From Thermocrispum municipale DSM 44069 (GTDB lineage: Bacteria > Actinomycetota > Actinomycetes > Mycobacteriales > Pseudonocardiaceae): a DNA stretch of 64,000 nucleotides. Shown piece by piece: positions 6,657 through 36,788 of the stretch (positions within the stretch are counted from its first letter, which is position 1; each line of letters starts with the position of its first letter). The notes below the pieces were generated by a model that was not told the origin of the DNA, ran no database searches, and saw only the letters and a list, made by a program, of their open reading frames with translations. A program made the translations under genes and the position numbers. The stretch lies in NCBI RefSeq assembly GCF_000427825.1, contig NZ_ATYT01000007.1, positions 186,001-250,000 of the forward strand, written 5' to 3'.

Positions 6657-7508
6657 TCACTGGATCGACGCGCCCCCGTCCACCGGGATCTGGCCGCCGG
6701 AGACGTAGTAGGACTCCGGCCCGGCGAGCCAGGCCACGGCGTTCGAGACGTGCTCGGGCTCGATCCACGCCTTGCCCATCGGGTTCAGGCCGGCGAAGGC
6801 CGCTTCGGCGTCCTCGGCCTTCGGCTCCTCCAGGTCCGGACGGAACAGCCGGTAGGTGCGGGTGTTCTTCACCATCGGGGTGTCGATCGAGTTGGGGTGG
6901 ATGGTGTTCACCCGGATGCCGTGCGGGCCCAGCTCGTTGGCGAGCACCTTCATCAGGCCGACGATCGCGTGTTTCGTGGTGGTGTACGCGGCCACGTTGG
7001 CCAGCCCCTTGAATCCGGCCAGCGAAGCGATGATGATCACCGAGCCGCCGGCCCCGGCGGCCAGCAGGTGCGGGGCCGCGGCCTTGTAGGTGTGCCACAC
7101 GCCTGTCACGTTGACGTCCATCAGCTCCCGCCAGGCGTCCTCGCTGACCTCGTGAGTGGCTTCCCCGAACGTGAAGATGCCCGCGTTGGCCACCACGATG
7201 TCCAACCTGCCGAACTTGTCGACACCCGCATTGACCGCGTCGGTCAAGGCGTCGATGTCCCGCACGTCGGCCTGGGCGGCGTGGATCCGGCCGCCGGCTT
7301 CCTCCACCAAGCGCACCGTCTCGGCCAGATCCTCCGGTGTCGCCAGGTCGTAGAAACCGTCCAGGCTGCCGATGTGCGCGCAGATGTCCACGGCGATGAT
7401 CGCCGCGCCGTCCCGGGCGAGCCGCAGTGCGTGACTACGGCCTTGCGCACGGGCCGCCCCGGTGATCAATGCAACCTTCCCTGCCAGCGGTGCCGCCGGT
7501 GCGCTCAT
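6657..7508 (-). CDS. mycofactocin-coupled SDR family oxidoreductase
   Basis: A 283-residue short-chain dehydrogenase. The N-terminal GAARAQGRSHALRLA and the insert after the second strand (VDICAH...FYDLATPEDLAE, about residues 40-65) are hallmarks of the mycofactocin-coupled SDR family (carveol-dehydrogenase-like). These hold NAD(H) without exchange and pass electrons to mycofactocin. The catalytic Ser, Tyr and Lys are present (IIIASLAGF, YTTTK). It oxidises an alcohol to a ketone or aldehyde. Its ATG lies 2 bases after the stop of the flavin monooxygenase gene, suggesting consecutive steps. Cofactor coupling is inferred from family and from the mft locus in this window. Confidence 0.9.
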   Translation of the reverse strand: MSAPAAPLAGKVALITGAARAQGRSHALRLARDGAAIIAVDICAHIGSLDGFYDLATPEDLAETVRLVEEAGGRIHAAQADVRDIDALTDAVNAGVDKFGRLDIVVANAGIFTFGEATHEVSEDAWRELMDVNVTGVWHTYKAAAPHLLAAGAGGSVIIIASLAGFKGLANVAAYTTTKHAIVGLMKVLANELGPHGIRVNTIHPNSIDTPMVKNTRTYRLFRPDLEEPKAEDAEAAFAGLNPMGKAWIEPEHVSNAVAWLAGPESYYVSGGQIPVDGGASIQ

Positions 7509-14882: not shown

Positions 14883-16051
14883 CGGCCGGCGCAAGCGGCT
14901 CGACGGTGCTCGATCTCGAACGAGGGCACGTCGTGGTGGTTGGCGGCGGGCTGGCCACCGCCCGGTTCTGCGCCGTCCTGCGCCGCAAGAAGTTCACCGG
15001 CCGCATCACCGTGCTCAGCGCCGAGAACGTCCCGCCGTATGACCGACCACCGCTGTCCAAGGCGGTGCTGACCGGCGAGCGCGACGACTCCCCGCTGCCG
15101 TTCAACGCGGAGAGGCTGGAGGTCGACCTGCGCCTGGGCACCCGTGCGCTCGGATTGGACCCCGCTGCGCGCACGGTCCGAACCGACTCAGGCGACGTGC
15201 GGTACGACGCTCTGGTGATCGCGACCGGCGCCACTCCGGTGCGGTTGCCTGGCGCGGGACCGCAGCGAACTCTGCGCACCCTGGACGACGCGCTGGCGCT
15301 ACGGAAGGAGCTGCTGCCCGGTGCCCGCGTGGTGATCGTCGGCGCCAGCTGGATCGGCGCCGAAGTGGCCACCGCCGCGAAGGCAGCAGGCAGCGACGTG
15401 ACCTGTCTCGAGCTCGGCGCACAGCCGCTGTGTGGAGCGCTCGGGGAGAAGGTCGGCGCAGCCACCCGTCCGTGGTGGGAGGGCATCGACCTGCGCACGT
15501 CCACCGCGGTGAAGTCCGTGGAGGCCGACGGCGTGCACCTGGCCGACGGCACCGTCCTGGCGGCGGATGTCGTGGTGTCCGGCATCGGCGTGCGACCCGC
15601 TGTGGAGTGGCTCGCTGACTCGGGCATCGCCACTGACCGCGGGATCCTGACCGACACTCGGTGCCGCACCAACGTCCCCGGCGTGGTCGCGATCGGCGAC
15701 GTAGCGCAGCGTTGGACCGCCCACACCGGTTCGCACCGGTTGGTGGAGCACTGGGACGAGGCGAGCACGGCCGCGACCGCCGCCGTGGCGAGCCTGCTCG
15801 ACTGGGAGCAGGGGCCCGAACACGACCCAGTCCCCTATTTCTGGTCCGACCAGTTCGGGCGCAAGCTGCAGTACGTCGGCGTCCACGCACCCGGCGACGA
15901 GCTGACCGTCGAGACGGCGGACGACGGCACCCTGCGGAGGGCGATCTGGAGCCGGGACGGAGCCCTCACCGCCTGGCTCGGCGTCGACCTCAGCAAAGAC
16001 TTGGTGAAAGCCCGCACCGCGGTGGGCGGGCCCGTGTCCGCGTTGGCGTGA
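14879..16051 (+). CDS. NAD(P)H-dependent ferredoxin reductase (FAD)
   Basis: About 390 residues, of the putidaredoxin-reductase type. FAD motif VVVGGGLATARFCAVLRR, then YDRPPLSKAVL, the central RVVIVGASWIGAEVA for NAD(P), and GDVAQRW for flavin binding near the C-terminus. It feeds electrons to the [3Fe-4S] ferredoxin for the P450. Translation probably starts at GTG 14879, overlapping the P450 stop (GTGA). It is paralogous to the reductase at 41378-42598. Confidence 0.92.
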   Translation: MTAGASGSTVLDLERGHVVVVGGGLATARFCAVLRRKKFTGRITVLSAENVPPYDRPPLSKAVLTGERDDSPLPFNAERLEVDLRLGTRALGLDPAARTVRTDSGDVRYDALVIATGATPVRLPGAGPQRTLRTLDDALALRKELLPGARVVIVGASWIGAEVATAAKAAGSDVTCLELGAQPLCGALGEKVGAATRPWWEGIDLRTSTAVKSVEADGVHLADGTVLAADVVVSGIGVRPAVEWLADSGIATDRGILTDTRCRTNVPGVVAIGDVAQRWTAHTGSHRLVEHWDEASTAATAAVASLLDWEQGPEHDPVPYFWSDQFGRKLQYVGVHAPGDELTVETADDGTLRRAIWSRDGALTAWLGVDLSKDLVKARTAVGGPVSALA

Positions 16052-19020: not shown

Positions 19021-19848
19021 TCAGACCAGCAGCGTTCCCATGTCCACCGCGAGCGTCTGCCCGGTCACGAACCGCGCCTCGTCGGAGCACAGCCAGGTCA
19101 CCGCGTTGGTGATCTCCTCGGGCTCGACGGGCCCGTGGTCCATGACGTTGGCCATCCAGCCGCCGGGGGCGTCGTCGGAGAGATCGGCGCCGAAGAACTC
19201 GTTGTCGATCATCTTCGTGCGCACCCCCGCCGGGATGACGGTGTTGACCCGGACGCCGTGCTTGCCCAGCACCATCGCGAAGTTGCGCATCAGCGCGAGA
19301 ATGCCGTGCTTGGCCGCGCCGTAGCCCATCTGGCCGGGGTTGAGCATCTCCGTCTTGTAGGCGACGCCGCGGAAGCTGGACGTCGATCCGGTGATGCAGA
19401 TGGCGCCGCCGCGACCGCGCTCGATCAGCCCCGGGGTGACCGCGCGCAGCAGGTAGTAGACGCCGTTGAGCATCGTGGCGACCGAGTCGTGCCATGCCTG
19501 GATGTCGTGCTTGCGCTCGCCGTAGCTGGCCATGATCCCGGCGTTGGCGAGCACGATGTCGATACCGCCGAAGCGTTCCTCGGTCGCGGCGACCGCAGCC
19601 TCGACGGCCGCCTGATCCCGGACGTCGCATTGGATCGCCAGCACCTCGGCGCCGAGCTCTTTGAGCTCCTGCTCGGTCTTGGCCAGATCTTCGGGCGTGG
19701 ACATCGGGTAGACGACGGTGTCGATCTGGTCGGCGATGTCGAGGATCGCGACGTTTGCGCCCTCTTTGGCCAGGCGTAGCGCGTGCGACCGGCCCTGCCC
19801 CCTGGCGCCGCCGGTGATGATGGCCGTCTTGCCCTCGAAACGTCGCAT
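19021..19848 (-). CDS. mycofactocin-coupled SDR family oxidoreductase
   Basis: A 275-residue SDR with GGARGQGRSHALRLA near the N-terminus and the family insert ILDIADQIDTVVYPMSTPEDLAK. Ser, Tyr and Lys of the active site are seen in CITGSTSSF and GYGAAK. This is the second member of the mycofactocin-coupled SDR group in region A. The ATG at 19848 follows GGGAGAAG; an in-frame GTG 12 bases earlier overlaps that site and is not favoured. It lies between the flavin oxidoreductase and an aldehyde dehydrogenase, fitting an alcohol-to-acid route. Confidence 0.9.
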   Translation of the reverse strand: MRRFEGKTAIITGGARGQGRSHALRLAKEGANVAILDIADQIDTVVYPMSTPEDLAKTEQELKELGAEVLAIQCDVRDQAAVEAAVAATEERFGGIDIVLANAGIMASYGERKHDIQAWHDSVATMLNGVYYLLRAVTPGLIERGRGGAICITGSTSSFRGVAYKTEMLNPGQMGYGAAKHGILALMRNFAMVLGKHGVRVNTVIPAGVRTKMIDNEFFGADLSDDAPGGWMANVMDHGPVEPEEITNAVTWLCSDEARFVTGQTLAVDMGTLLV

Positions 19849-30272: not shown

Positions 30273-30471
30273 CCGCTCGCGTCAGCCACCAGACAAGCCT
30301 CGGACCGTTCGCTTGAGCGCTCGACGGCGACGGTGGCTCGAGGCGCAGGGCGAGCCGATCGGCAATGACCCACGACCGTGGCGACCTGCATTCACCGAAC
30401 CCACCTCGAGCAGGGGAGATCCCCGGGCGCGCAGCCCGCTCACACCCCGAAGGCTCGATTCGGTCTTCCAT

Positions 30472-30488
30472 TTGACACCAAGTGCCAA
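30472..30488 (+). promoter_or_regulatory. mftA promoter/operator, candidate MftR site
   Basis: TTGACACCAAGTGCCAA is an inverted repeat (TTGxCAC / GTGxCAA arms, 3-base centre) 40 bases before mftA. Its core TGACACCAAGTGCCA (30473-30487) matches TGACACCGAATGCCA at the mftR promoter in 13 of 15 positions. The TTGACA could also be the -35 box. The remainder of 30273-30471 holds nothing recognised. Confidence 0.65.
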
Positions 30489-30527
30489 TATTCTCGGATG
30501 CACGTGACCGACGTCGAGGAGGACGCC

Positions 30528-30635
30528 ATGAGCAACGAGGACGTGCAGACCGTCGCTGTCGAAAACACCGCCGAGGTCGAGGAAGACGTCCTGGTCGAGG
30601 ACGTGTCGATCGACGGTATGTGCGGTGTCTACTGA
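30528..30635 (+). CDS. mftA: mycofactocin precursor peptide MftA
   Basis: A 35-residue RiPP precursor. It has an acidic leader and the invariant ending IDGMCGVY, whose last Val-Tyr pair is decarboxylated and cross-linked by MftC to form the cofactor core. The ATG at 30528 is preceded by GAGGAGGAC; an in-frame ATG at 30498 lacks such a site and lies next to the operator. The mftB GTG lies inside the last codons of mftA. The family assignment is firm because of the C-terminus and the full set of mft genes that follow. Confidence 0.96.
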   Translation: MSNEDVQTVAVENTAEVEEDVLVEDVSIDGMCGVY

Positions 30636-30918
30636 TCTGGATCCCCGGCGGCCCTATCGGCTCAGCCCGACGGTCTCCCTGCGCCCGGAACCGTTCGGTG
30701 CGCTGGTCTACGACTTCGCCACGCGCCGGTTGTCTTTCTTGAAGACACCGACGTTGACGCAGATCGTGCGTGACCTGGACCAGTATCCGGACGTCGACAC
30801 CGCGATGGCCGCCGCAGGTGTGCCCGCCGGCGAGCACGACCAGTACCTGAAGGCGCTGGACCGGTTGCTCGCGGCGGGCACGATCCACCCGCTGCCCCCG
30901 GACGAAGGACCCCCATGA
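30625..30918 (+). CDS. mftB: mycofactocin peptide chaperone MftB
   Basis: A 97-residue PqqD-like RiPP recognition element. It contains SLRPEPFGALVYDFATRRLSFLK and a helical C-terminal half ending LKALDRLLAAGTIHPL, matching MftB. It binds the MftA leader and presents it to the radical SAM enzyme. It starts at GTG 30625, overlapping the mftA end by 11 bases, and itself overlaps mftC by 4 bases. Confidence 0.95.
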   Translation: MSTDLDPRRPYRLSPTVSLRPEPFGALVYDFATRRLSFLKTPTLTQIVRDLDQYPDVDTAMAAAGVPAGEHDQYLKALDRLLAAGTIHPLPPDEGPP

Positions 30919-32132
30919 AACTGGTCGACCACTTCCAGCACGGACTCGATGCGCCGATCTGCCTGACGTGGGAGCTGACCTACGCCTGCAACCTGGCGTG
31001 CACGCACTGCCTGTCGTCGTCGGGACGACGCGACCCGCGCGAACTGTCCACCGAAGAGTGCAAACGCGTCATCGACGAGCTGCAGCGCATGCAGGTCTTC
31101 TACGTCAACATCGGCGGCGGTGAACCGACCGTGCGCTCGGACTTCTGGGAGCTGCTGGAATACGCCATCGACCACCAGGTCGGGGTGAAGTTCTCCACCA
31201 ACGGCGTGCGCATCAGCCAGGAGCGCGCACGGCAGCTGGCCGCCATGGACTACGTGGACATCCAGGTGTCGCTGGACGGCGCCACGCCCGAGGTCAACGA
31301 CGCGGTGCGCGGTCCCGGATCGTTCGACACCGCGTGGCGTGCCATGGAGAACCTCGCCGAGGCCGGATTCACCGGCTTCAAGATCAGCGTGGTGATGACC
31401 CGGCACAACGTCGACCAGCTCGACCAGTTCAAACGCATCGCCGACCACTTCGATGCCCAGCTGCGCATCACCCGGCTGCGGCCGTCCGGACGTGGCGCGG
31501 ACGTCTGGGACGAGCTGCACCCGACCCAGGAGCAGCAGCGACAGCTGTACGAGTGGCTGTTGGGCAACGGTGAGAACGTGCTGACCGGCGACTCGTTCTT
31601 CCACCTCAACGCGCTGGGCTCGGCCCCGCTTCCCGGGCTGAATTTGTGCGGTGCGGGCCGCGTTGTGTGCTTGATCGACCCGATCGGCGACGTCTACGCC
31701 TGCCCGTTCGCCATCCACGACGAGTTCCTGGCCGGCAACGTGCGCGGCCCCGGTGGCTTCACCGAGGTGTGGCGGACATCGGCGTTGTTCGAGCAGTTGC
31801 GGCAACCGCAGACCGGTGGCGCGTGCACGTCGTGTTCGGCCTACGACTCCTGCCGGGGCGGGTGCATGGCGGCGAAGTTCTTCACCGGATTGCCGCTCGA
31901 CGGCCCGGACCCGGAGTGCGTCAAAGGCAACGCCGAGCAGGCGCTCGAGTTGGCCGGCGCAGGTGCCGCACCGAAGCCGGACAAAGACCACTCGCGCCGC
32001 ACCGCGCCACGCCGACGCTCCGCGGTCCCGGTGTCCATCGGCTGGGGGCCTCCCGACGATCGGATTCCCGATCGTGCGTGTGACACCAGCCCGCTCGCCG
32101 GCTTCTCACTACCCGAACCCCGGAGGACCTGA
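30915..32132 (+). CDS. mftC: mycofactocin radical SAM maturase MftC
   Basis: A 405-residue radical SAM/SPASM protein. The CNLACTHC motif (Cys25, 29, 32) binds the SAM cluster. The SPASM region has a Cys-rich end (CGAGRVVCLIDPIGDVYAC, then CTSCSAYDSCRGGC) for auxiliary clusters. It decarboxylates the C-terminal Tyr of MftA and forms the Val-Tyr carbon-carbon bond. Its last ~55 residues, beyond the SPASM cysteines, are Arg/Pro-rich and look unstructured. The stop overlaps the mftD start (TGATG). Confidence 0.97.
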   Translation: MKLVDHFQHGLDAPICLTWELTYACNLACTHCLSSSGRRDPRELSTEECKRVIDELQRMQVFYVNIGGGEPTVRSDFWELLEYAIDHQVGVKFSTNGVRISQERARQLAAMDYVDIQVSLDGATPEVNDAVRGPGSFDTAWRAMENLAEAGFTGFKISVVMTRHNVDQLDQFKRIADHFDAQLRITRLRPSGRGADVWDELHPTQEQQRQLYEWLLGNGENVLTGDSFFHLNALGSAPLPGLNLCGAGRVVCLIDPIGDVYACPFAIHDEFLAGNVRGPGGFTEVWRTSALFEQLRQPQTGGACTSCSAYDSCRGGCMAAKFFTGLPLDGPDPECVKGNAEQALELAGAGAAPKPDKDHSRRTAPRRRSAVPVSIGWGPPDDRIPDRACDTSPLAGFSLPEPRRT

Positions 32133-33304
32133 TGGCCAGCACCAGACACTGGTTCGAAACCGTCGCCGAGGCCCAGCAGCGGGCCAAGAAGCGGCTACCC
32201 AAGTCGGTGTACCTTGCCCTGCTCGCCGGGTCGGAAGCGGGCGTGACGCTGTCGGACAACACCGCCGCGTTCGCCGAGCTCGGGCTGCGGCCGCACATCG
32301 CCGACCAGCCCGCCAAGCGCGAGCTGTCGACCACGGTGCTCGGCCAGGAGATCTCGCTGCCGGTGATCTGCTCCCCCACCGGCGTGCAGGCGGTCGACCC
32401 GGCGGGCGAGGTCGCCGTTGCCCGCGCGGCCGCCACGTCCGGCACGGCCATCGGCCTGTCGTCGTTCGCGTCGAAGCCGGTCGAGGAAGTCGTCGCGGCG
32501 AACCCGAAGACGTTCTTCCAGATCTACTGGCAGGGCGACCGCGATGACATGCTGCGGCGGCTGGACCGGGCCAAGAAGGCGGGAGCGGTCGGGCTGATCG
32601 TGACATTGGACTGGGTGTTCGCCACCCAGCGCGACTGGGGCAGCCCGCCACTGCCGGAGAAGCTCGACTTCAAGACGATGCTGTCGTTCGCCCCGCAGGT
32701 GTCGGTGCGGCCGGGCTGGCTGCTGCGCTATCTGCGGGCTCGCAGGCTGCCGGATCTCACCACGCCGAACCTGGCCGAGCGGGGACAGAAGGGCCCGACG
32801 TTCTTCGGCGCCTACGGCGAGTGGATGCAGACCCCGCCGCCGAGCTGGTCCGACCTGCAGTGGCTGCGGGAGCAGTGGGACGGCCCGTTCATGATCAAGG
32901 GCGTGCACCGGCCCGACGACGCGCGGCGAGCGATCGACATCGGCGCTACGGCGATCTCGGTGTCCAACCACGGCGGTAACAACCTGGACAGCACGCCCGC
33001 GTCGATCCGAGCGCTGCCCGGTGTGGTCAAGGCCGTGGACGGGCAGATCGAGGTCTTGCTGGACGGCGGCATCCGGCGCGGCAGCGACGTGGTCAAGGCA
33101 CTCGCACTGGGCGCCCGCGCGGTGATGATCGGCAGGGCGTACCTGTGGGGCATGGCGGCCAACGGGGAGCGCGGCGTGCACAACGTGCTGGAAATCCTGC
33201 GCCAGGGCATCGACTCCACGCTGTACGGCCTCGGCAAGGCGTCGGTGCACGACCTGACGCCGGACGACGTGCTGATCCCGGACGGGTTCACCCGGGGCAT
33301 GTAG
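32132..33304 (+). CDS. mftD: mycofactocin biosynthesis FMN-dependent deaminase MftD
   Basis: A 390-residue member of the L-lactate dehydrogenase / glycolate oxidase FMN family. The barrel opening EISLPVICSPTGVQ and the catalytic His in VSNHGGNNLD are evident, with LLDGGIRRGSDVVKAL for FMN phosphate binding. In the mycofactocin pathway it oxidatively deaminates the released cyclised dipeptide to premycofactocin. CGGAGGACC precedes the ATG. Assignment rests on family plus position between mftC and mftF. Confidence 0.96.
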   Translation: MASTRHWFETVAEAQQRAKKRLPKSVYLALLAGSEAGVTLSDNTAAFAELGLRPHIADQPAKRELSTTVLGQEISLPVICSPTGVQAVDPAGEVAVARAAATSGTAIGLSSFASKPVEEVVAANPKTFFQIYWQGDRDDMLRRLDRAKKAGAVGLIVTLDWVFATQRDWGSPPLPEKLDFKTMLSFAPQVSVRPGWLLRYLRARRLPDLTTPNLAERGQKGPTFFGAYGEWMQTPPPSWSDLQWLREQWDGPFMIKGVHRPDDARRAIDIGATAISVSNHGGNNLDSTPASIRALPGVVKAVDGQIEVLLDGGIRRGSDVVKALALGARAVMIGRAYLWGMAANGERGVHNVLEILRQGIDSTLYGLGKASVHDLTPDDVLIPDGFTRGM

Positions 33305-34638
33305 TGCCGGTGGTTCAGGCGGGCACCAGGCTCACCCTGGATGCCAACGCGCGCCGCTTTCGCGGGGACCGGGTCCTGCTCGGCGGTTCGCCGTTACGCC
33401 TGATCCGCCTCAGCTCGACGGGCGCAGGCTACCTGCGGGACTGGGTGGCCGGCCAGCCCGTCGGAGACCGCTCCGGTGAGCGGCGGCTGGCGGAGAGGCT
33501 GGTCGCCGCCGGGCTCATGCACCCACGGCCCAGCGGCGGGCACTACTCCGCGCGCGACGTCACGCTCGTCGTGCCGGTCAAGGACGACGCTTCGGGTGCT
33601 GCGGCGGTGGGTACGGCGAGCGAAGGGTTGAACAGGGTCGTCGTCGACGATGGATCAGCTGCTCCCCTGCCGGATGCCGCGGTCCGCCACGACCGCCCAC
33701 GAGGACCTGCGGCCGCCCGCAACTCCGGCTGGCGGCTGGCGAACTCCGACCTCGTGGCGTTCCTGGACGCGGATACACGTCCTGAACCGGATTGGCTCGA
33801 GGCCGTGCTACCGCACTTCGAGGACCCCCAGGTCGCCGCCGTCGCACCGCGAGTACGCAGCGTTCCAGGCCAAGGCGCCCTCGCTGAGTACGAAGCAGAT
33901 CGCTCCAGCTTGGACATGGGTGCCGATCCCGGTCGGGTGCTGCCGTTGAGTCGCATCGGTTATGTCCCGACCGCGGCGCTGGTCGTCCGGCGGTCCGCGC
34001 TGGTCACGGTCGACGGGTTCGACGAAGCGCTCCGCTACGGAGAAGACGTCGACTTCGTCTGGCGCCTGATCGATGCCGGTTACGACGTCCGCTACGAGCC
34101 GGAGTCGACCGTGTGGCATGTACCGCGACCAGATGTGCGGTCCTGGCTACGCCAGCGCTTCGACTACGGCACGTCCGCCGCCCCCTTGGCGCGCCGTCAC
34201 CCGGACCGGCTCGCCTGCGCGCGATTGTCCGCGTCCAGTGCACTCGAATGGGGCCTGACCGTGGGTGGTTTGCCGAGGGCAGCGGTAGTGGCCGCCGCTG
34301 CCGGCGCCACTCGCATGATCCGGCGGCTGCGCCGTCGCGGAATTCCCGGCGACGAATCGGTGAAATTGGTGCTCGATGCATCGGCCGCTACCGCAGGGAT
34401 GCTCGCCGCGGCCGTCCGACGGGGGTGGTGGCCGCTGACTCTGCTGTCCCGTCGCGGCAGGCGCGTGCTGCTGGCCAGCCTGCTGCCGTGCCTGGTCGAG
34501 GCCGTCAGGCAGCGCAAGACGCCGGGCTGGGCCGCTTTACGGATAGCCGACGACATCGCCTACGGCATTGGCGTCTGGGTCGGTTGTGCGCGGGAACGCA
34601 CGGCCAAGCCACTCCTGGCGCAGCGGATTCGCTCCTAA
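33304..34638 (+). CDS. mftF: mycofactocin glycosyltransferase MftF
   Basis: A 444-residue GT-A (family 2-like) glycosyltransferase. It has LVVPVKDD, VVVDDGSAAP, FLDADTRPEPDWLEA (DxD metal site) and the FDEALRYGEDVDFVWR acceptor region, with an N-terminal PqqD-like stretch (about the first 75 residues) as in other MftF proteins. It extends the cofactor with a glucose chain. Translation starts at GTG 33304, using the final G of the mftD stop (TAGTG). Its TAA overlaps the stop of the convergent mftE. Confidence 0.94.
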   Translation: MPVVQAGTRLTLDANARRFRGDRVLLGGSPLRLIRLSSTGAGYLRDWVAGQPVGDRSGERRLAERLVAAGLMHPRPSGGHYSARDVTLVVPVKDDASGAAAVGTASEGLNRVVVDDGSAAPLPDAAVRHDRPRGPAAARNSGWRLANSDLVAFLDADTRPEPDWLEAVLPHFEDPQVAAVAPRVRSVPGQGALAEYEADRSSLDMGADPGRVLPLSRIGYVPTAALVVRRSALVTVDGFDEALRYGEDVDFVWRLIDAGYDVRYEPESTVWHVPRPDVRSWLRQRFDYGTSAAPLARRHPDRLACARLSASSALEWGLTVGGLPRAAVVAAAAGATRMIRRLRRRGIPGDESVKLVLDASAATAGMLAAAVRRGWWPLTLLSRRGRRVLLASLLPCLVEAVRQRKTPGWAALRIADDIAYGIGVWVGCARERTAKPLLAQRIRS

Positions 34639-35315
34639 CTCTCAGCCATCCATGTGGCGACAGCATCGACCAACGAGTCCGTCCAGCGCTCGAGCACGGC
34701 GGCGCCGTCGTCGGCACTGGCGCGCGTGGGATCGCCAAGGACTCCGTTCGGGCTGACCGCGGCCACGCCGCCCCGGCGAAGGTCGTCGATGATGTCCGGC
34801 AACGGTGCCGTCACGCCGGGCTCGGCCGCGTCGAGTGCGACTCCGGGATGCTCGAGGCTCAACAACACCGAGGTCTCGGTGTGGCCTGCGTGGGTGTCGT
34901 CCGCACGGCCGGCCGGGGCCCAGGCCATCACGGTGCGACCTTCGGCCCGCAGTGTCCGGACGGCTTCGCGCAGCGGCTGGGCGTTGCCGCCGTGCCCGTT
35001 GACCAGGACCACCCCGGCGAAGTCGTCAGCCGACCGGACCAGTTCGACGACCAGCCCGGTCAGCATGGCCTGGCCGATCGACAGTGTCCCGGCAAACCCC
35101 GCGTGCTCTCCGCTCGACCCGTACGGAATTGGCGGCGCCACCACCACGTCCGGGATGCGATCGGCGAGCCGTCGGCACAGCTGTGTGGCGATCACGGTGT
35201 CGGTGCTCAGCGGCAGGTGGGGACCATGCTGCTCGGTAGCGCCCAATGGGACGGCCAGCAGCGTGCGCGCGGCGCGGTCGGTCAGTTGCGGTGAGCGAAG
35301 TTCGCCGAGGTTCAC
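34635..35315 (-). CDS. mftE: mycofactocin precursor peptide peptidase MftE (creatininase family)
   Basis: A 226-residue creatininase-fold protein. Metal ligands are evident in LGATEQHGPHLPLSTDT, in LVNGHGGNAQPL and in HAGHTETSVLL. It cleaves modified MftA to release the cyclised Val-Tyr product. Unlike the classical mft order it is on the minus strand, behind an SDR gene, with a GTG start overlapping the SDR stop. Its stop codon overlaps that of mftF by two bases, so transcription of the two halves of the pathway is convergent. Confidence 0.94.
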   Translation of the reverse strand: MNLGELRSPQLTDRAARTLLAVPLGATEQHGPHLPLSTDTVIATQLCRRLADRIPDVVVAPPIPYGSSGEHAGFAGTLSIGQAMLTGLVVELVRSADDFAGVVLVNGHGGNAQPLREAVRTLRAEGRTVMAWAPAGRADDTHAGHTETSVLLSLEHPGVALDAAEPGVTAPLPDIIDDLRRGGVAAVSPNGVLGDPTRASADDGAAVLERWTDSLVDAVATWMAES

Positions 35316-36115
35316 GCCGTGAAACCTCCGTCCGCGTGCAGCACGGTCCCGGTGAGCGCCGAGGAATCCGGCGAGCAGAGCCAGCTCACCGCCGCGGCCA
35401 CTTCGTCGGGGTCAAGGAGGCCGGTGAGCTGATGGGTGGCGAATTCGTCGGCCGAGGGCAGGTCGTAGAGCTGGGCGGATGCCTCGAGCATGGCCGTACG
35501 GGTGGAGCCCGGTGACACGGCCGTGACGCAGATGCCGGTGCCTGCCAGATCGTGGGCGAGTCCTTTGACCAGGCCGACGACGGCGTGCTTCGCGGCGTTG
35601 TACCCGGCTAGATGGAGCAGGCCGCGGTGCGCCGCGCTGGAGGCTACCGCCACGAATCGGCCGCTCCGTGGTTCTTCCTGGCGCAGCAGGGCGGGGATGG
35701 CGGCCCTGGCCAGGTTCGCCACCCCGGTCACGCAGACACCGAAGAGGGCTTCCCACTCGGTCGCGGGCGCCTCCCACAGCGGCTTACCGCCCGCGATGAC
35801 ACCGGCGGCGGCCACGGCCGCATCGAGACCGCCGAAGCGTTGTTCCGCGAGGGCGACGGCTTCTCGTAGCGCATCGACGTCTTGCACGTCAGCGACGAAA
35901 TCGAGCACCGCATCCGGGTGTCCGGCCGCGAGCGATTCGAGGTCCGCTCGCGTCGCCAGCGGATACGGCACCCGAGGGTCGTCCGCGCAGCGGTCGACCG
36001 CGACCACCCGCCATCCGTTGCCAACCAGGCGTCGGACCGTTGCGGCTCCGATGCCCCGCGCAGCACCCGTCACGACGGCGACCCGTCGCTGTGCGCTCGC
36101 TGGCTCGTCGGTCAC
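35312..36115 (-). CDS. mycofactocin-locus SDR family oxidoreductase
   Basis: A 267-residue SDR with TGAARGIGAATVRRL, an insert-like YPLATRADLESLA, and the Ser/Tyr/Lys set in VASSAAHRG and GYNAAK. It resembles the SDR subfamily that sits next to mft genes in actinobacteria and is taken to use mycofactocin. The start is GTG 36115, preceded by AAGGGGCAG. It is the first gene of a two-gene operon with mftE and shares its promoter region with mftR. The exact substrate is unknown; a general regeneration or alcohol-oxidising role is possible. Confidence 0.88.
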   Translation of the reverse strand: MTDEPASAQRRVAVVTGAARGIGAATVRRLVGNGWRVVAVDRCADDPRVPYPLATRADLESLAAGHPDAVLDFVADVQDVDALREAVALAEQRFGGLDAAVAAAGVIAGGKPLWEAPATEWEALFGVCVTGVANLARAAIPALLRQEEPRSGRFVAVASSAAHRGLLHLAGYNAAKHAVVGLVKGLAHDLAGTGICVTAVSPGSTRTAMLEASAQLYDLPSADEFATHQLTGLLDPDEVAAAVSWLCSPDSSALTGTVLHADGGFTA

Positions 36116-36152
36116 GTCGCTGCCCCTTGACCCCTCGGGAATACGATGATCG

Positions 36153-36167
36153 TGACACCGAATGCCA
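36153..36167. promoter_or_regulatory. candidate MftR operator at the mftR/SDR-mftE divergent promoter
   Basis: TGACACCGAATGCCA repeats 13 of 15 bases of the element before mftA. It lies between the divergent starts of mftR and the SDR gene. An adjacent short palindrome ACGATGATCGT (36143-36153) touches it. Confidence 0.65.
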
Positions 36168-36179
36168 CGGGAAAGAAGC

Positions 36180-36788
36180 ATGGGTCGACAACCGTCCGGA
36201 AACGGCGCGCGGCGTGGCCGTCGCCCAGCCACCAGTCGCGCTGAGCTGGAGCGGGTCGCGTTCGACCTGTTCTCGACGCGGGGCTTCGACGCGACAACCA
36301 TCGACGACATCGCCGCCGCCGCGAACATCGGCCGCCGGACGTTCTTCCGCTACTTCGACTCGAAGAACGACGTCGTGTGGGGCAATTTCACCGAGCAGTT
36401 GGAGTCGATGCGCAGCCGCTTCGCCGAGTGCCCGCCCGAGCAGCCGCTGATGGAAGCCATCCGCGACGTCGTGGTGGACTTCAACCGCTTCGACCCCGCG
36501 GTCGTGCCGTGGCACCGCAGGCGCATGGAGCTGATCCTGCGCGTCCCCGCCCTGCAGGCGCATTCGACGCTGCGTTATGCGGATTGGCGGACGGTCGTGG
36601 CGGAGTTCGTCGCCCGGCGGCTCGGGGTGGACTCCGACGCCCTGGAACCCCGGGCGATCTCGCACGCCACGCTCGGCGTCTGCATCGCCGCCTACGAGCA
36701 CTGGCTCATCCATCCGGAAGCCGAATTGGGTGACGTCCTGCACCGGATGCTCACCGAGCTGGCCTCCGGCTTCGGCGCGCGGGTGTGA
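36180..36788 (+). CDS. mftR: mycofactocin system TetR-family regulator MftR
   Basis: A 202-residue TetR protein. The N-terminal GRRPATSRAELERVAFDLF and the DNA-binding region TTIDDIAAAANIGRRTFFRYF followed by SKNDVVWG are diagnostic for MftR. It is known as the repressor of mft genes, with long-chain acyl-CoA reported as ligand in mycobacteria. The ATG at 36180 follows GGGAAAGAA. The in-frame ATG at 36162 lies inside the proposed operator and is rejected. Its own promoter and that of mftA carry the same 15-base element. Confidence 0.94.
   Translation: MGRQPSGNGARRGRRPATSRAELERVAFDLFSTRGFDATTIDDIAAAANIGRRTFFRYFDSKNDVVWGNFTEQLESMRSRFAECPPEQPLMEAIRDVVVDFNRFDPAVVPWHRRRMELILRVPALQAHSTLRYADWRTVVAEFVARRLGVDSDALEPRAISHATLGVCIAAYEHWLIHPEAELGDVLHRMLTELASGFGARV

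Follow-up and report, generated by a model that had tools for sequence, protein, structure and literature searches.

We analysed a 64,000-nucleotide stretch of the Thermocrispum municipale DSM 44069 genome (contig NZ_ATYT01000007.1, hereafter the window) carrying a mycofactocin (mft) cluster that is split into two units, mftABCDF and SDR-mftE, with the gene of the TetR-family repressor MftR beside the second. A 15-base element stands before mftA (site 1) and a similar one between mftR and the SDR gene (site 2), and, judging from sequence comparison, the two are very probably operators of MftR. The operator reading is close to certain for site 1 and somewhat weaker, at the level of very likely, for site 2. 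The preliminary description of this DNA, which had named the two elements as candidate MftR operators, located them correctly, with 13 of 15 bases identical and mismatches at positions 8 and 10. Its proposal gains from the match of the elements to a footprinted core (GGCA changed to GACA), from their conservation together with MftR, and from their covariation with the recognition helix of the protein.

The MftR of Mycolicibacterium smegmatis was footprinted with DNase by Mendauletova and Latham on the 27-bp sequence TCCATTCTGGCACTCGATGCCATATAT (Omft) before mftA, and the pattern T-N2-GGCA-N5-TGCC-N2-A was given for 83 mycobacterial species (PMC8728441). The mftA site of the window, TTCCATTTGACACCAAGTGCCAATATT, aligns with Omft, flanks included, if a gap of one base is placed between TTCCAT and the core. 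Both window sites read GACA-N5-TGCC and are thus one base away from the published core, and GACA occurs naturally in the mftA operators of relatives; at site 2, the outer T..A pair of the pattern has no base-for-base match. The inverted repeat described earlier for site 1 is real (TTGACAC-CAA-GTGCCAA, with one mismatched pair), and site 2, for which no repeat had been mentioned, is palindromic too (GTGACAC-CGA-ATGCCAC). The mftA operator is already known in mycobacteria, and that of the window appears to be its counterpart outside this group.

In the 4.52-Mb genome of the strain, the combined pattern TGACACCNANTGCCA is found at the two mft sites and nowhere else, with 0 occurrences in the control. 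A loose search of the window (up to 3 mismatches) gave 4 matches against 4.9 expected, which is weak evidence and not significant by itself, and an independent matrix test was therefore built from relatives (80 named mftC loci and the MftR loci of 60 related genomes). The symmetric 15-column core matrix was derived from the mftA promoters of 83 relatives, with the window's own site left out. Over the 64,000 positions of the window, it ranked the site at 36153 first (19.2 bits) and that at 30473 second (18.4 bits). The expected number of matches of at least 19.16 bits is 1.4e-5 in the SDR-mftR gap of about 64 bp, 0.014 in the window, and 1.0 in the genome. A 27-nt matrix made from the relatives' mftA upstream regions assigned 36.7 bits to site 1. 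The element is not missing from orthologous promoters, an outcome that the preliminary description had named as contrary to its proposal: matrix analysis of mftA upstream regions found it in 83 of 98 relatives, the window's site not being counted.

The distribution of the operator follows that of MftR. At a threshold of at least 9 bits, all loci with a local mftR have the operator (49/49), while it was found in 1 of 11 genomes lacking MftR altogether (Fisher 5.6e-8, relatedness uncorrected). The search in relatives that had been suggested earlier thus shows the element before mftA across actinobacteria with MftR and its absence, for the most part, where MftR is absent. Six genomes have MftR but no site at the examined mftA, and in three of these (Thermocatellispora, Hoyosella, and Nocardia wallacei) another mft cluster lies next to mftR and has an operator, full or weak. 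The half-sites also vary with the recognition helix. Replacement of MftR Arg57 by His or Gly accompanies symmetric TGCAC..GTGCA operators (4/4 vs. 0/61, the best of 202 columns), and loss of Arg52 accompanies operators of the GTCAC..GTGAC type (6/9 vs. 1/56), a switch that Nocardia mikamii (L044, compared with L033–L041) displays within the window's own MftR clade. The window MftR has the standard helix (GRRTFFRYF), and its sites belong to the standard class. Loci with such helix and half-site variants include L107, L111, L155, and L157. The site sequences, their match to the known operator, their conservation, and their co-occurrence and covariation with MftR are direct observations.

Several points weigh against the operator reading. 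Single substitutions in the palindrome did not abolish binding of M. smegmatis MftR (PMC8728441). Met127, which affects DNA binding in M. smegmatis, corresponds to Arg132 in the window MftR. Only two to three independent changes lie on the MftR tree, and a phylogeny-aware sign test cannot reach significance; because the changes are so few, the covariation is suggestive and does not amount to formal phylogenetic proof. Site 2, which lacks the TTCCAT and ATTA sequences flanking the mftA operator, scores −4.9 with the 27-nt matrix, and about one site as strong as site 2 is expected by chance per whole genome, which is why its position matters. In the sister genome G001, which has the same rearranged cluster and the mftA site TGACACCAAGTGTCA, the orthologue of site 2 (CGACAACGAGTGCCA) keeps GACA-N5-TGCCA; it is weak (11.2 bits), and its 3 changes in 15 positions are not fewer than in the surrounding DNA, so that conservation alone is no proof of site 2.

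On these grounds, one could suppose that only the mftA site works as an MftR operator, that site 2 is a decaying remnant or a chance match, and that SDR-mftE is expressed independently. The differing flanks and the weak sister site without excess conservation fit this supposition, as does genome G005, in which mftA has an operator and mftR has none in front. We nevertheless regard it as unlikely, since site 2 is the window's best core match, the chance of such a site in the SDR-mftR gap is of the order of 1e-5, and Prauserella shujinwangii has a site of 20.4 bits at the equivalent SDR|mftR position, a pattern repeated in other split clusters. The flanks of the 27-bp footprint carry the mftA promoter boxes, so that their lack at site 2 need not exclude MftR binding; site 2 as an operator is supported by its core match and its context.

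In P. shujinwangii (L051, the same genome as G021), mftABCD(F) lies on one contig and mftE-mftF-SDR|mftR on another, and an identical 15-mer stands at the mftA and SDR|mftR promoters. Operators are also found before mftR/mftB and before mftA in G018, before mftA|mftR and before mftD in G050, and before mftD|mftR in G039, whose mftA has none. Separate mftD units have their own operator in 5 of 8 cases, against 0 of 48 for mftD inside an operon and 28 of 4764 background windows, and two Actinomadura loci (L097 and L109) have sites of 21–22 bits near SDR genes of lower similarity. The rule of one operator per unit is not universal, because no operator was found at separated mftE and mftF (0/31), and separated SDR genes have one in only 2 of 18 cases, those of the window and of P. 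shujinwangii; many of the other separated SDR genes may lie inside longer operons behind non-mft genes. Control of all mft genes by one TetR protein despite the split, as proposed earlier, therefore draws support from the operators at the extra promoters of other split clusters, and is qualified by the differing flanks of site 2 and its weak sister site. It should be noted that two mftF-like genes occur in P. shujinwangii (L051/L150), one following mftD and the other within the mftE-SDR block, and that the window locus resembles both of its blocks placed side by side with a single mftF.

It is considerably less probable that some other TetR regulator, for instance a paralogue resembling MftR, is the main reader of the element, in place of MftR or alongside it. 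Near-identical palindromes, CGGCACTCAGTGCCA among them, do stand near the genes of paralogues in other genomes that score below the MftR cut-off (L029, L046, and L051), but the operators are largely lost without MftR and vary with its recognition helix, and no clear promoter outside mft in the strain's genome has such a site. The palindromes beside these paralogues lie at L029:1405 and 2189, at L046:1934, 1976, and 2215, and at L051:18605, sometimes several per gene, and cross-talk or a sister regulon is possible. The genome-wide search for further MftR targets yielded matches that mostly lie inside genes and no other convincing promoter site. The third-best match in the window, 15652–15666 (CGACACTCGGTGCCG, 16.9 bits), was rejected as probably due to chance, being inside a ferredoxin-reductase-like reading frame; this frame sits between a cytochrome P450-like and a transporter-like open reading frame. 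An intergenic match before an SNO/PdxT gene (L179), located some 130 bp from that gene in a stretch with local repeats, and a match near a response regulator (L126) were unconvincing as MftR targets.

Operator 1 fills the 17-bp gap between the −35-like and −10-like boxes of the mftA promoter, and TANNNT begins one base past the operator core in 67 of 82 mftA promoters. In divergent clusters, the TTCCAT letters overlap the ribosome-binding site of mftR on the opposite strand, which makes their conservation there ambiguous; TTCCAT is also retained in the window, G001, and G018, although mftR is not divergent from mftA in these genomes. On the other side of the locus, the TACGAT box facing mftR ends five bases upstream of operator 2. 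A simple sigma-70 consensus scan found no promoter at either site, so that the assignment of the boxes relies solely on their conservation. The idea that the shared letters are core promoter sequence and not an operator can hardly be upheld: the conserved block does include the two boxes flanking the palindrome, but its conserved core is a palindrome in a spacer, a region that is usually unconstrained in promoters, and this core matches the footprinted MftR site and tracks the presence of MftR.

The window MftR is related to the solved structures 2RAE and 8X0A. Its residues Arg34, Asp43, and Arg53 correspond to Arg29, Asp38, and Arg48 of the M. smegmatis protein (at a constant offset of 5 that was verified against the QD and FD-x-H motifs in the Rhodococcus rows), which are required there for operator binding (PMC8728441). 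Replacing His68 or Asp16 of M. smegmatis MftR abolished detectable oleoyl-CoA binding (PMC8728441). At these two places, which lie within 36240–36440 of the window, the MftR proteins of the window and of G001 have Gln73 and Ala21, and most relatives carry Gln, Glu, or others; His at the position equivalent to 68 is present in only 14 of 69 aligned MftR proteins. For this reason, induction by acyl-CoA is not to be assumed here. A different ligand contact in the window MftR is possible, sensing of acyl-CoA may be confined to some members of the MftR family, and the repressor function would seem to transfer to the window MftR better than the ligand does.

From these data, we infer a course of binding, repression, transcription start, ligand response, and cluster splitting as follows. 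An MftR dimer would read the palindrome (T/G)TGRCAY-N3-RTGYCA through its recognition helix. Since operator 1 occupies the promoter spacer, repression would be steric: MftR bound between the −35-like and −10-like boxes would exclude RNA polymerase and silence mftABCDF. Operator 2, which directly follows the −10-like box of mftR and lies across the promoter region of the divergent SDR-mftE operon, would allow repression of SDR-mftE and make mftR autoregulated. A ligand, which is long-chain acyl-CoA in M. smegmatis and possibly another compound here, would release MftR and turn on both halves together. Relative to the usual layout, with mftR divergent from mftA and one common operator, mftR would have come to stand beside SDR-mftE, with each separated unit having its own operator.

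Gene identities were assigned with NCBIfam models, and MftA, B, C, D, F, E, the mycofactocin-coupled SDR, and MftR each score above the curated cut-off (Table 1). Reading frames abut or overlap within each block, which leaves two evident promoter regions, one before mftA and one in the SDR|mftR gap, in line with the earlier statement that the locus has only two. The start of mftR is likely the ATG at 36180 and not the first in-frame ATG at 36162, inside operator 2, because the order of operator, GGGAA-rich purine stretch, and ATG recurs in G001, G021, and G018.

Table 1. Features of the split mycofactocin locus (positions in the window)
Feature	Position	Strand	Basis or remark
−35-like box TTCCAT, mftA promoter	30466..30471	+	upstream flank of operator kept in relatives; 17 bp before TANNNT; putative −35 role
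MftR operator 1 (Omft), predicted	30473..30487	+	TGACACCAAGTGCCA, core of the inverted repeat; 41–55 bp upstream of mftA
−10-like box TATTCT, mftA promoter	30489..30494	+	starts one base 3' of operator core
mftA, mycofactocin precursor peptide, first gene of mftABCDF	30528..30635	+	TIGR03969, 51.2 bits (cut-off 25)
mftB, mftC, mftD, mftF, remainder of first operon	30625..34638	+	TIGR03967, TIGR03962, TIGR03966, TIGR03965, all above cut-off; reading frames abut or overlap
mftE, second gene of SDR-mftE operon, convergent with mftF	34635..35315	−	TIGR03964, 275.7 bits (cut-off 172)
Mycofactocin-coupled SDR oxidoreductase, first gene of SDR-mftE operon	35312..36115	−	TIGR04504, 390 bits (cut-off 250)
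−10-like box TACGAT facing mftR	36142..36147	+	retained in sister genome G001; role inferred
MftR operator 2, predicted	36153..36167		TGACACCGAATGCCA (TGGCATTCGGTGTCA towards SDR); common to divergent mftR and SDR-mftE promoters
mftR ribosome-binding site GGGAAAG	36169..36175	+	sequence
mftR, TetR-family repressor	36180..36788	+	TIGR03968, 274 bits (cut-off 224.9)

No mftG-type GMC oxidoreductase scored above the cut-off in the strain's genome. Two more mycofactocin-coupled SDR genes (TIGR03971, above cut-off) lie at 6663–7487 and 19030–19839 of the window, and no operator is present among the window's top matrix matches at the SDR genes with 5' ends near 7487 and 19860; the users of the cofactor thus seem to be separately regulated. 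Directly before the mftA promoter, a small terminator-like hairpin (30447–30463) followed by TCTTCCATTT fits the transcript end of an upstream TetR-like gene.

Three points go beyond the literature found: an operator for each split unit, operator variation in step with the recognition helix, and the lack of the residues for acyl-CoA binding. They can be joined, tentatively and with rather less than even confidence, into one reading, in which MftR and its operator form a specificity code that co-evolves (TGCAC half-sites going with Arg57 replaced by His/Gly, GTCAC half-sites with the loss of Arg52), each mft transcription unit has an operator with it when clusters split, and the MftR of the window's lineage keeps its operator and changes its effector. 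Taken together, the results extend a repressor–operator pair known from mycobacteria to other actinobacteria and offer a simple rule for locating MftR-controlled units in split clusters. They also lead to predictions on the bases recognised by each MftR variant and on the signal, which in the window's lineage may be something other than acyl-CoA, and they bear on the open question of when mycofactocin is made by cells.

In comparison with known systems, the window shares with the M. smegmatis MftR–Omft pair a TIGR03968 TetR repressor, a GRCA-N5-TGCC palindrome before mftA with TCCATT and ATAT-type flanks, and the equivalents of the DNA-contact residues Arg29, Asp38, and Arg48; unlike M. smegmatis, it has a cluster split into mftABCDF and SDR-mftE, with mftR away from mftA and a second operator, and lacks the acyl-CoA residues His68 and Asp16. 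The divergent mftR|mftA arrangement usual in Pseudonocardiaceae (for example, in Prauserella rugosa, L033, and Saccharomonospora, L039) has the same class of operator before mftA, but there a single operator is common to both genes, unlike the two of the window. With P. shujinwangii, whose halves are on separate contigs and whose operators are identical at 15 of 15 bases, the window, with adjacent halves and sites differing at 2 bases, has in common two operators, one per unit, and an SDR gene that diverges from mftR, the operator standing some 20 bp before mftR.

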